This document shows positions 13,614 through 52,476 of a stretch of DNA of 64,000 nt, in pieces; positions within the stretch are counted from its first letter, which is position 1; every line of letters begins with the position of its first letter. The notes below the pieces were generated by a model. It made no database searches. It saw only the letters and a list, made by a program, of their open reading frames with translations, and had not been told where the DNA came from. Source of the stretch: Halomarina litorea (GTDB lineage Archaea > Halobacteriota > Halobacteria > Halobacteriales > Haloarculaceae); the NCBI RefSeq assembly GCF_024227715.1, contig NZ_CP100448.1, positions 2,377,655-2,441,654 on the forward strand, written 5' to 3'. A program made the translations under genes and the position numbers.

Positions 13614-15125
13614 TCAGCCCCGGTAGTTCCGGTCGAGGATGACCACGTCGCACTCGAGGTTCTGGACGCGCTCGAAGGTGGGGCGGGAGATGAACCGCGA
13701 GGCGGCGGTCCGGTCGCCGCTCGAACCGATGATGACGAGGTCGTAACTCGGCGCGTTCGAATCGAGGAAGTCCGCGATGTCCTGCCGGGAGACGCGCGTC
13801 TCGCAGGCGGCGCTGACCGTCTCGACGATGTCCGCCAGCATCCCCTCGGCGTCCCGGCGGCGGGACTCGCTGTCGATGCAGTGACAGACCGCGACCCGAC
13901 CGGTGCGTCCGGCCAGACGGGTGGCGAAGTCCACCATCTCGTGGGCGGTGTCGCCCGCCTTCCGGACGGGGACGAGAACGCGCTTCCAGCGCTGGCGGCC
14001 GCCGCTGGAGCGGTGGACGACCACGTCGACGTCCCCCCCGAACAGTGCCCGGAGGAACCCCGAGAGGTGGTCGTCCTCGGTCTCGTAGGCGGCCGCGATG
14101 AGGTCGCAGTTGGTCTCGTGGGCGGTCCTGACGACGGTGTCCGCGGGGTTCGCCCCCTCGGTGGCGACGACCACCTCGCAGGGGACGCCCACCTTCGACC
14201 GGATGGCCGCCGCCCGCGACTCGAGGTCGTCGGCGACGATGGCGGCCGCCTCCCGTTCGGCCTCGTCGACCGTCTCCACGTCGCCCCCCGCGTCGGACGG
14301 GATGCCGCCGTCCGACGCGACCGCCTCGCCGTCCGGGTCCGTCCGGCCCTCGGCCACCCGACTCGCCTCGTCGATGGTCTCCTCGCTCACGAGGTCCATG
14401 AGGACCACCTTCCCCGCGTCGTGGGCCGCCGCGAGGCGGGCGGCGAGCATCGCCGTCTCGTCCGGATCGGGGCCGCGCAACGGGACGAGGACGTGGTCGT
14501 CGCCCTTCGTCGACTGGTAGAGGTAGCGGGCGCGCTCCCGGTAGAACTTCCGACGCCAGAGGACGAACGCCGCCGCGATGAGGGCGCTCGACGCCGCGAT
14601 GCTGAGCACGTAGATGGAGCGTCCCGACACGCCGAACGGTTGGGGGGCGTCCCCGGGGATGTCGGCGACGAGGACCAGCAGTGCGCTGGAGAACGCCGCC
14701 GGTTCCTCGATGTCGAATCCCCAGGTGACGACGGCGGTGAGGAACACCGACAGGGCTGCCCCCGCCACGTCGACGCTCATCGGCGCGACGGGGGAGAACG
14801 CCCGCCCCACCTCGAAGGCGACCCAACCACAGGCCGCCCCGACGGTGAGGCCCGCGACGAACCGCGTCGGCGAGGAGTAGCGCCCCGACGGGTTGGCGAA
14901 GAGGGTGTAGGTACCGGAGGCGAGCGGCGGGAACAGCAGGAACGAGAACGCGGGGACGGCGTTCGAGATGGCCGTCACCAGCGCGATGAGCAGCGGGACG
15001 AACAGCAGGACCGAGAGGTGGACGAGGTTGCGCGTGTGTTCGAGCCACACGCGGAACTCCCGCACCTCGCGTCGCTCGATGCGACGGAGTCGCCTGAACG
15101 CCTCGCGCACCCGCCTGCCGCACAT
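13614..15125 (-). CDS. HPP-family membrane protein fused to tandem USP domains
   Basis: A 503-residue protein. The N-terminal ~200 residues are an HPP-type membrane domain: four or more helices and the family loop FPPLASGTYTLFANPSGR with RYSSPTRFVAG. Two universal-stress-type cytoplasmic domains follow. The first begins HVLVPLRGPDPDETAML (about 229). The second begins RVLVPVRKAGDTAHEMV (about 382) and ends LVIIGSSGDRTAAS. HPP domains are linked to nitrite or other anion handling, and USP domains bind nucleotides, so this may be a nucleotide-regulated transporter. The substrate is unknown. It is a single gene. Confidence 0.82.
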   Translation of the reverse strand: MCGRRVREAFRRLRRIERREVREFRVWLEHTRNLVHLSVLLFVPLLIALVTAISNAVPAFSFLLFPPLASGTYTLFANPSGRYSSPTRFVAGLTVGAACGWVAFEVGRAFSPVAPMSVDVAGAALSVFLTAVVTWGFDIEEPAAFSSALLVLVADIPGDAPQPFGVSGRSIYVLSIAASSALIAAAFVLWRRKFYRERARYLYQSTKGDDHVLVPLRGPDPDETAMLAARLAAAHDAGKVVLMDLVSEETIDEASRVAEGRTDPDGEAVASDGGIPSDAGGDVETVDEAEREAAAIVADDLESRAAAIRSKVGVPCEVVVATEGANPADTVVRTAHETNCDLIAAAYETEDDHLSGFLRALFGGDVDVVVHRSSGGRQRWKRVLVPVRKAGDTAHEMVDFATRLAGRTGRVAVCHCIDSESRRRDAEGMLADIVETVSAACETRVSRQDIADFLDSNAPSYDLVIIGSSGDRTAASRFISRPTFERVQNLECDVVILDRNYRG

Positions 15126-50941: not shown

Positions 50942-51070
50942 ACGAGAGGGGAGACGCGGGAGACAGGTGAACGCTGGGCCTGACTGTGCGGGTGCGGTGC
51001 GCTCCTCTCGCGGGGGCGCGTGCACGCGAAGAAACCGATATGCGCCGCTTGGCGAGTTGTTTCGAGAGAA

Positions 51071-51139
51071 GTGCACTGACTGGGATTTGAACCTCGGTCG
51101 CTCCTTCCAGTCGCTCCCTGCTTCAAATCCAGAGTACAC
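51071..51139 (-). repeat. tRNA-end palindrome, unit 1
   Basis: The tRNA-like arm (51071-51092) faces an inverted, slightly altered copy at 51121-51139 (CTTCAAATCCAGAGTACAC). In minus-strand RNA this gives a long hairpin of roughly 15-17 pairs with small bulges, whose 3' end is identical to a mature tRNA-Gly end. The loop region (about 28 bases) has no similarity to a tRNA D- or anticodon arm. Confidence 0.65.
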
Positions 51140-51156
51140 GTAGTCGTGACAGCGTT

Positions 51157-51182
51157 CCGCGCCGAGATGAAACTCGGCGCGG
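51157..51182 (-). ncRNA. Hairpin of unit 1, structurally matched to unit 2
   Basis: A perfect 10-bp stem, CCGCGCCGAG (51157-51166) with CTCGGCGCGG (51173-51182), and loop ATGAAA on the plus strand. It sits where unit 2 has its own hairpin. The two share the closing GAG/CTC pairs and loop pattern ATGRAA, but differ by compensatory changes in the stem. Transcription is inferred from the tRNA upstream on the same strand, not shown. Confidence 0.45.
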
Positions 51183-51198
51183 TCGTGAAGTCGGAGAA

Positions 51199-51264
51199 GT
51201 GCACTGACTGGGATTTGAACTCACTCGCTCACTGCGTTCGCTCGCTGTTCAAATCCAGAGTGCA
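51199..51264 (-). repeat. tRNA-end palindrome, unit 2
   Basis: The tRNA-like arm (51199-51220) faces an inverted copy at 51247-51264. GGATTTGAAC (51211-51220) and GTTCAAATCC (51247-51256) pair perfectly; AGAGTGCA then pairs with TGCACT after a small bulge. The loop (about 26 bases) is built of TCACTCGCTC/CTCGCT-type repeats common between haloarchaeal genes. Confidence 0.65.
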
Positions 51265-51270
51265 GACACA

Positions 51271-51318
51271 CAAACCCGTGAGTGACGCGGAGATGGAACT
51301 CCGCGTCGGGTGGGTTTG
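51271..51318 (-). ncRNA. Two-tier hairpin of unit 2, structurally matched to unit 1
   Basis: The inner 9-bp stem is GACGCGGAG (51284-51292) with CTCCGCGTC (51299-51307), loop ATGGAA. The outer 7-bp stem is CAAACCC (51271-51277) with GGGTTTG (51312-51318). Compared with unit 1, the inner stem differs at three of nine pairs and every change is compensated on the other strand. In tRNA sense it lies directly downstream of the tRNA-Gly trailer. Confidence 0.45.
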
Positions 51319-51325
51319 AGAGAAG

Positions 51326-51396
51326 TGCACTGACTGGGATTTGAACCCAGGTTGTGACCATGGCAAGGTCACGTGATACCACTACACTATCAGTGC
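51326..51396 (-). tRNA. tRNA-Gly (anticodon GCC)
   Basis: Read on the minus strand the gene starts GCACTGATAGTG and ends with TCAGTGC plus discriminator A. The acceptor stem is 7 perfect pairs (GCACTGA / TCAGTGC). The D-arm has TAGTGGTATCA. The anticodon stem TGACC/GGTCA (with CTTGCCA loop) shows GCC. The T-arm has GGTTCAAATCC. The mature part is 71 bases with no intron and no encoded CCA. Its 3' end is copied twice downstream. Confidence 0.95.
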
Positions 51397-51600: not shown

Positions 51601-52476
51601 ATGACACGAACCGTACTCGTGCCGTCGTCGCTGGTCCGGGAGTCCCGTGACAAACGGGAGGCCACACGCAAGTTGGGCTACGTCGCCCGCGCGGCGACGA
51701 TATTCCGGGTCGACCGCCTCGTCGTCTATCCCGACCGGGATGGCGAACGCAGGTGGGGCGGCGGGTTCGTTCGCACCGTGTTGGCCTACGCGGCCACACC
51801 ACCCTACCTCCGAAAGGACGCGTGGGGTCGGCGCGACGAGCTAGAGTACGTCGGCGTGCTGCCGCCGCTCCGTGCTGTCACGGAGACCGGCTCCGGATCG
51901 GACGATTCGGGGTCGTTAAGACAGGGAATCGTGACCGAGGTCGGACCTGACGGGCGCGTCCGGGTCAATTGCGGCATGCAACACCCAATCTCCCTCAACG
52001 TCCCACCGGAGATGGTGGTCGAGGAGGGAGAGCGCGTTACCATCAGGGTATCTTCGCGAGAACCGCTCCGCGCTCGCATCGTGGACGCGCCCGTTCCGGG
52101 CGTGTCGGTGCGGGAGGCGGAGTTGGCGACTGCGCTCTCGTGGCCCGACGCGGGCGTCCGAATCGCCGCGTCGCGTCACGGTGAGCCGTTGAGCGTCGCG
52201 CGACTGGGCGAACTCGCTCCGCGCGTGCGCGACGGGTTCACCGCGACGTTCGGGGCCCCCGAGCGCGGGTTGCCGGAGATACTCGGCGTCACCCCGGAGT
52301 CGGTGTCCGCACCGACAGGGGACGACGCCAGCGACGACGCAACCGCGACACCGCGGTCTGACGAACCCACAGATGGGTTCGACCTCTGGCTGAATACGGT
52401 TCCACACCAGGGCAGCGAGGTGATACGAACGGAGGAGGCTCTGTTCGCCACGCTCTCGCCGCTCAACCTGGAGTAA
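51601..52476 (+). CDS. Putative rRNA uridine N3-methyltransferase, SPOUT type
   Basis: A 291-residue SPOUT-fold protein. The N-terminal piece RTVLVPSSLVRESRDKREAT with KLGYVARAATIFRVDRLVVY is the family opening. A small beta-barrel insertion follows (QGIVTEVGPDGRVRVNCGMQ). The C-terminal knot region reads GFDLWLNTVPHQGSEVIRTE. Members are annotated as RNA uridine N3-methyltransferases and sit before the L3 gene in many archaea, as here (four bases from L3). It would methylate rRNA as the ribosome is built; the exact position is not shown by sequence. Confidence 0.88.
   Translation: MTRTVLVPSSLVRESRDKREATRKLGYVARAATIFRVDRLVVYPDRDGERRWGGGFVRTVLAYAATPPYLRKDAWGRRDELEYVGVLPPLRAVTETGSGSDDSGSLRQGIVTEVGPDGRVRVNCGMQHPISLNVPPEMVVEEGERVTIRVSSREPLRARIVDAPVPGVSVREAELATALSWPDAGVRIAASRHGEPLSVARLGELAPRVRDGFTATFGAPERGLPEILGVTPESVSAPTGDDASDDATATPRSDEPTDGFDLWLNTVPHQGSEVIRTEEALFATLSPLNLE

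Follow-up and report, generated by a model that had tools for sequence, protein, structure and literature searches.

The tRNA-Gly(GCC) gene in the stretch of 64,000 nucleotides analysed here (the window) is followed by two short non-coding units, each ending with an exact copy of part of the 3' end of the gene. On the evidence of the sequences, these units may well belong to a class of short non-coding cassettes of haloarchaea that stack behind tRNA genes, where repeated site-specific recombination via a folded single-stranded site adds them to the tRNA 3' end. We infer that the units are mobile and are served by a recombinase. Units of this kind seem to be an order-wide feature, found behind roughly half of the tRNA genes of the genomes examined, that has gone undescribed: a literature search covering few subscription papers retrieved no account of haloarchaeal tandem units derived from tRNAs.

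The tRNA-Gly(GCC) locus

The tRNA-Gly(GCC) gene scored 66.2 bits with the Rfam model, and the corresponding ARAGORN call spanned positions 51325-51396. The features of the locus are listed in Table 1. In the initial annotation, the last 27 bases of the tRNA-Gly region were reported to recur exactly at two downstream sites on the same strand, 128 and 126 bases apart, and each unit was said to carry an inverted copy of the tRNA end and a small hairpin. Both observations were confirmed: the 27-mer GAGAAGTGCACTGACTGGGATTTGAAC (given for the + strand) occurs three times with these spacings, and the inverted copy and the hairpin can be recognised in both units. The 20-mer extending from T54 to N73 has exact matches in the 3.88-Mb genome at these three sites only, and six trailer bases accompany it in both exact downstream copies. 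Two features went beyond the initial annotation: a larger inverted repeat surrounds each of the small hairpins (CAAACCC/GGGTTTG in unit 1), and the same downstream arrangement is found at most other tRNA genes of the genome. Relatives carry different complementary sequences in place of the outer P1 stem of unit 1, and the P1 region of unit 2 can be aligned with the sole, decayed unit at the tRNA-Gly locus of the sister species G007. A Rfam search of the locus identified nothing above the gathering score except the tRNA itself.

Table 1. Features of the tRNA-Gly(GCC) locus, in window coordinates.
Feature	Position	Strand	Remarks
tRNA-Gly(GCC) gene	51326..51396	-	Rfam RF00005 and ARAGORN; N73 at 51326, T54 at 51345
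20 nt T54-N73 in tRNA-Gly itself	51326-51345	-	
Unit 1 (proximal, 126 nt)	51200..51325	-	Order: trailer, P1, P2; P2 terminates with the copy of tRNA nt 54-73
P1, unit 1	51271..51318	-	Outer stem CAAACCC/GGGTTTG encloses the inner hairpin
P1 inner hairpin, unit 1	51284-51307	-	GACGCGGAG-TTCCAT-CTCCGCGTC
P2, unit 1	51200..51264	-	5' arm TGCAC..GGATTTGAAC; 3' arm TTCAAATCCCAGTCAGTGCA
P2 apical stem, unit 1	within 51200..51264	-	CGAGCGAAC-GCA-GTGAGCGAG; tandem G.A pairs, GNA loop
First exact T54-N73 copy	51200..51219	-	3' arm of unit 1 P2
Unit 2 (distal, 128 nt)	51072..51199	-	
P1 inner hairpin, unit 2	51158..51183	-	CCGCGCCGAG-TTTCAT-CTCGGCGCGG; aligned to G007
P2, unit 2	51072..51138	-	Apical module GCAGGGAGCGACTGGAAGGAGCGACCGAGG (commonest type) flanked by T-loop arms
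Second exact T54-N73 copy	51072..51091	-	3' arm of unit 2 P2

Elsewhere in the window, a match to RF03135 (L4-Archaeoglobi leader) was obtained at positions 51947-52046 (+), with a score of 70.3 bits (gathering score 34.5). It lies inside the ORF at 51601-52476, just upstream of rpl3 and outside any leader, and is either a coding-sequence match or the product of a misnamed family.

Anatomy of the units

The units follow a common plan, in which the tRNA end is succeeded by a hairpin P1 and then by a hairpin P2. The 3' arm of P2 repeats nt 54-73 of the tRNA beside it, and the 5' arm is complementary to approximately nt 54-64. For 305 units behind 209 tRNA genes, identity to the unit's own tRNA was 0.91-1.00 from T54 to N73; it was at the level of the unrelated-tRNA background directly upstream of G53, and 0.63, versus a background of 0.47, directly past N73. 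CCA follows the copy in only 2 of 293 cases, which excludes an origin by reverse transcription of mature tRNA.

The 5' arm of P2 paired with nt 54-64 at at least 8 of the 11 positions in 68 of 74 units, versus 7 of 74 shuffled ones. Position 57 of the T-loop covaries between the two arms (T-A in 50, C-G in 27, mismatched in 8), and three T-stem positions were paired above expectation. The complement of the acceptor end showed only mild enrichment in the 5' arm (9/68 versus 2.4%). The apical modules between the arms fall into several recurrent types common to different isotypes, many having tandem G.A pairs and a GNA loop at the tip. The 5' strand of P1 frequently corresponds to the T-rich trailer, and sister species differ in their P1 stem sequences while complementarity is kept, an example being Haloferax Ser-GGA. 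Relative to shuffled sequences, the units folded with a median z of -3.8, versus -1.2 for the flanks behind copy-less tRNAs. Inspection by eye of the hairpins revealed no fitting K-turn or guide-RNA motif. Some variant units (L050, L051 and L046, and for example units of Ala-GGC and Arg-TCT) have the T-loop sequence substituted in both arms, by AGTCCCG/CGGGACT and similar pairs, but retain the final ~13 nt of the tRNA.

Distribution of the units

A search of the genome with the region retrieved matches behind tRNA-Glu, Arg, Asp, Tyr, Ser, Val, Ala, Leu, Lys and others, each of these tRNA genes having a downstream copy of its own 3' end. With a copy defined as no more than 2 mismatches in 14 within 300 nt, own-end copies were found at 24 of the 42 tRNA genes identified with Rfam in this genome, versus 0.42% in a control in which tRNA ends were scored against the mismatched flanks of other tRNAs. 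When this genome (G000) was pooled with those of the sister species G007 and of G060, from another family, 65 of 125 tRNA genes were associated with 103 copies (control 1.9%), and the median unit length was 121 nt. The number of copies per tRNA ranged from one to five. The presence of copies behind many tRNAs and in several genomes excludes an oddity confined to a single tRNA.

The hairpin core GATTYGAA-N15-45-TTCRAATC was present in 274 of 293 genomes of the order, with 0 control matches among the genomes listed; outside the order but within the same phylum, it was at noise level (1-2 matches in 17 of 164 genomes). A stricter pattern identified at least 120 stretches in named genomes and, among the 80 records listed, all were haloarchaeal save one unplaced euryarchaeal MAG. 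Among the matches listed, 78 of 82 had a same-strand tRNA gene no more than 300 nt upstream, and 61 of these 78 had at most 3 mismatches in 15 to the end of the adjacent tRNA, versus ~3% for other isotypes; the pattern consists partly of the T-loop itself, and the 15 nt compared lie almost entirely outside it. Haloferax species also carry units. In every lineage examined, the great majority of unit lengths were 85-170 nt.

Orphan units, with no matching tRNA gene nearby, were observed in this genome (L043, G000 C1 near 1074876) and in Haloferax marinum (L202). In viral contigs, the strict pattern gave 0 matches and two looser patterns gave 4 and 2. Only one of these, L343 (IMGVR_UViG_3300000875_000004, 13744-13909), looks haloarchaeal and tRNA-linked, so viral cargo is disfavoured as an explanation. 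L343 comprises a tRNA-Glu(TTC) followed by a typical unit, and is possibly the host flank of a provirus.

Polarity and probable growth of the arrays

Among the 73 arrays with at least two copies, the proximal copy was better preserved in 37 and the distal copy in 4 (p=1e-7). Several tRNAs of G000 and G007 have an older unit in common and differ in the sequence before it. The unit that is extra in one sister species adjoins the tRNA, and the old trailer has been displaced along with the old copy. In the case of Leu-CAA and of Lys, what follows the displaced copy in G000 can be aligned, starting at base +1, with what directly follows the tRNA in G007; the alignment starts at about +1 for Glu and is partial for Gly and Val. 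The alignment score was 116 for Leu (null maximum 87), 75 for Lys and 83 for Gly (both above the 99% null value of 70), and 67 for Glu and 64 for Val (between the 95% and 99% null values); the shifts of Leu and Lys are stronger than the other three. At the tRNA at 2983311, the extra unit is found in G007 instead (score 80). It is formally possible that proximal units were lost by homologous recombination rather than gained, but the polarity of the arrays makes gain beside the tRNA the simpler explanation. The initial annotation proposed a tRNA-templated repeat or a stack of nested attachment sites, and this stands in part: the units are nested, each array is specific to its tRNA and polarised, and the unit beside the tRNA seems to be the newest.

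Neighbouring units of a single tRNA are mostly unrelated outside their tRNA-derived parts, and a new proximal unit is unrelated to the next one. The five-unit array behind a tRNA-Ser of G060 (C1:705396-705937, in L321) consists of two alternating types, with an apparent duplication of a two-unit block. Behind tRNA-Lys(CTT) in G000 (L059 1575-2580, C1), ~1 kb with a 147-aa lipoprotein-like ORF precedes an older unit; this candidate gene-bearing cassette is flanked by a 14-nt copy of the tRNA end and by similar stretches of ~65 nt, and P1 and P2 are not clear at its ends.

The folded strand

Changes in the P2 arm gave G.T on the tRNA strand in 36 of 269 cases and A.C in 21 of 563 (p=1e-6), the excess of G.T indicating that it is the sense strand that folds. 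The loops were similarly asymmetric, with cGNAg 155, cGNYAg 39, cGNABg 30, cGNRAg 8 and TNCG 0 on the sense strand, versus cGNAg 8 on the antisense strand. This wobble and loop asymmetry is the strand bias of a site folded from a single strand, here the sense strand. GNRA and UNCG are the stable loops of RNA, whereas cGNAg, cGNNAg and cGNABg are reportedly very stable DNA loops, from the work of Hirao and Bevilacqua. GNRA accounted for 8 of the 438 sense-strand tri- and tetraloops, and UNCG for none; a few GNRA loops were present in the predicted fold of the 16S rRNA of the same genome. Together with the wobble bias, the loops favour folded single-stranded DNA of the sense strand, although indirectly, since the folds were computed with RNA parameters.

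These data also bear on the possibility, which we regard as rather unlikely, that the units are read-through trailers of the tRNAs in which P1 and P2 act as RNA (in processing, as decoy tRNA ends or in regulation), selection on RNA pairing holding the copy equal to the tRNA. The strong folding relative to the flanks of copy-less tRNAs, the wobble bias in favour of the sense strand, the compensatory changes in P1 between sister species and the way in which the copies follow changes in the tRNA itself would all be consistent with such a function. However, the loop types are not RNA-like, and the T-rich trailers past N73 resemble archaeal terminators, placed before the unit. Furthermore, the acceptor part of the copy is largely unpaired in P2, so that its exactness would have no explanation, and a conserved gene would not be expected to show proximal gain and distal decay.

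A model for insertion at the T-arm

In the recombination model, a recombinase, probably a tyrosine recombinase, would join the cassette to the tRNA gene at the 5' boundary of the T-loop (G53^T54). A fresh copy of nt 54-73 would come with the cassette, keeping the tRNA intact, and the previous tRNA end would be shifted downstream, where it would be free to decay later. The cassette would recombine at P2, formed by the sense strand folding as single-stranded DNA; the functional parallel would be the attC/attI pair of integrons, with the tRNA T-arm playing the role of attI. The data show the specificity, limits, structure, strand bias and polarity of the units and the shifted arrays of the sister species; we infer the insertion of units, the enzyme, the single-stranded intermediate and the point of exchange. 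The T-arm is a classical tyrosine-recombinase core, with five-base arms and a seven-base loop between them. Exchange at G53^T54 would account for the sharp start of the copies at T54, and selection on the tRNA would require an incoming cassette to end sharply at N73, as the copies do. P2 is built like an integron attC in that it combines a paired box at the base with an internal loop, a stem at the apex and G^TT on its 3' strand, hence the proposal that the T-loop receives short non-coding cassettes by way of a folded single-stranded site.

Tyrosine recombinases (PF00589) were found in 12 of the 13 genomes searched (the remaining genome is 73% complete), and none was seen beside an array; given their ubiquity, their presence is weak evidence for recombination. 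In the genomes examined, neither a recombinase tied to the units nor an excised form of them was seen. The variant units without the T-loop count against the recombination model, as does the sharing of apical modules between isotypes, which calls for some means of matching the scaffold to ends that differ between tRNAs.

Homologous tandem duplication, with hairpin-templated polymerase errors (quasipalindrome correction) maintaining the arms, would require neither a function nor an enzyme. It is clearly exemplified by the alternating unit types of the tRNA-Ser array at G060 C1:705396-705937, and the compensation of whole P1 stems is compatible with it. Nevertheless, adjacent units are usually unrelated and new proximal units are unlike the next one, and the presence of units at about half of the tRNAs of the genomes examined, and in all families yet not outside the order, argues for a dedicated process; we consider duplication an unlikely origin.

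The already disfavoured idea that the units are scars of ordinary integrase elements (viruses or plasmids) that successively entered at the tRNA and underwent internal deletion is improbable: tRNA 3' ends are classical attB sites, the arrays are polarised and tRNA-Val CAC of Haloterrigena salina (L165) is separated from its units by an integrated element of ~3 kb bearing a 486-aa P-loop-like ORF as well as an integrase-like one, but unit lengths are grouped around 121 nt with a uniform P1/P2 plan in every lineage, the patterns used detected one tRNA-linked unit only in viral contigs, and a covarying inverted arm should not persist in scars. Integrase elements at the same tRNAs are distinct from the units. 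The copies were also examined as possible ends of recognisable integrated elements, the finding that would have reduced them to a simple attachment-site history, and they are not such ends, the great majority of units being 85-170 nt long in every lineage examined and their structure being conserved. The initial annotation called the units far too short for an integrase, and none was seen in any unit.

If a recombinase does insert the units, a second class of cassettes, one free of integrases, uses tRNA genes as its platforms, and single-strand DNA recombination could be tested in genetically tractable archaea, such as the Haloferax species carrying units. The more specific proposition of an integron-like haloarchaeal system that uses the T-arm of practically any tRNA gene as insertion site and a folded ssDNA hairpin with nt 54-73 of that same tRNA as cassette site is possible but doubtful; if true, tRNA genes would be cassette platforms with tRNA function kept. 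Should the units act as RNA instead, they would constitute a new tRNA-linked RNA class. Either way, duplicated tRNA ends may mislead the annotation of attachment sites and tRNA fragments.

Comparison with known systems

Archaeal elements of the SNJ2, pNOB8 and SSV types integrate at tRNA genes and, like the units, hit the tRNA 3' end, restore the tRNA and leave a downstream copy of the 3' end, according to the part considered here of a review of archaeal tyrosine recombinases (PMC8371274); that part does not mention tRNA-end arrays. A duplicated tRNA 3' end restoring the tRNA, by which tRNA-integrated elements are recognised, was found here (T54-N73, 305 units). The units differ in being ~121 nt long, with conserved P1 and P2 hairpins, and in being stacked one to five deep at about half of the tRNA genes. 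No integrase or remnant was found between the att copies, nearly all units being 85-170 nt long and without coding capacity.

Partial tRNA copies related to prophages have been described in Haloquadratum, together with the mobile repeats PATE and SMR (PMC3119063). Like the units, these repeats are short, haloarchaeal and too small for a transposase, and PATEs have near-terminal palindromes; however, they are by description dispersed rather than tRNA-anchored, whereas the units duplicate nt 54-73 of the neighbouring tRNA. The properties of PATEs or IS200-IS605 derivatives (dispersed location, no target duplication, IS605-like ends) were not those of the units: among the matches listed, 78 of 82 were behind tRNA genes. 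CRISPR arrays resemble the unit arrays in growing at the leader-proximal end and decaying at the distal end, but the repeat of the units is tRNA-derived and the intervening parts are structured scaffolds, not spacers.

The units differ from integron cassettes in having no ORF, and in the genomes searched IntI was neither found nor linked to them; their anchor is the tRNA T-arm, and the basal arm is specific to each tRNA. The basal boxes, GGATTYGAA(C)/(G)TTCRAATCC, share only G^TT with the integron consensus RYYYAAC/GTTRRRY. Both systems form polarised cassette arrays with a recombination-like junction at G^TT, and P2, like attC, is a hairpin folded from one strand, in which the basal boxes pair, an internal loop is present and the apical part varies. 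Integron cassettes are inserted in a polarised manner at attI, and the polarity of the unit arrays (p=1e-7) and their proximal extra units are compatible with insertion at the tRNA, as well as with proximal loss.
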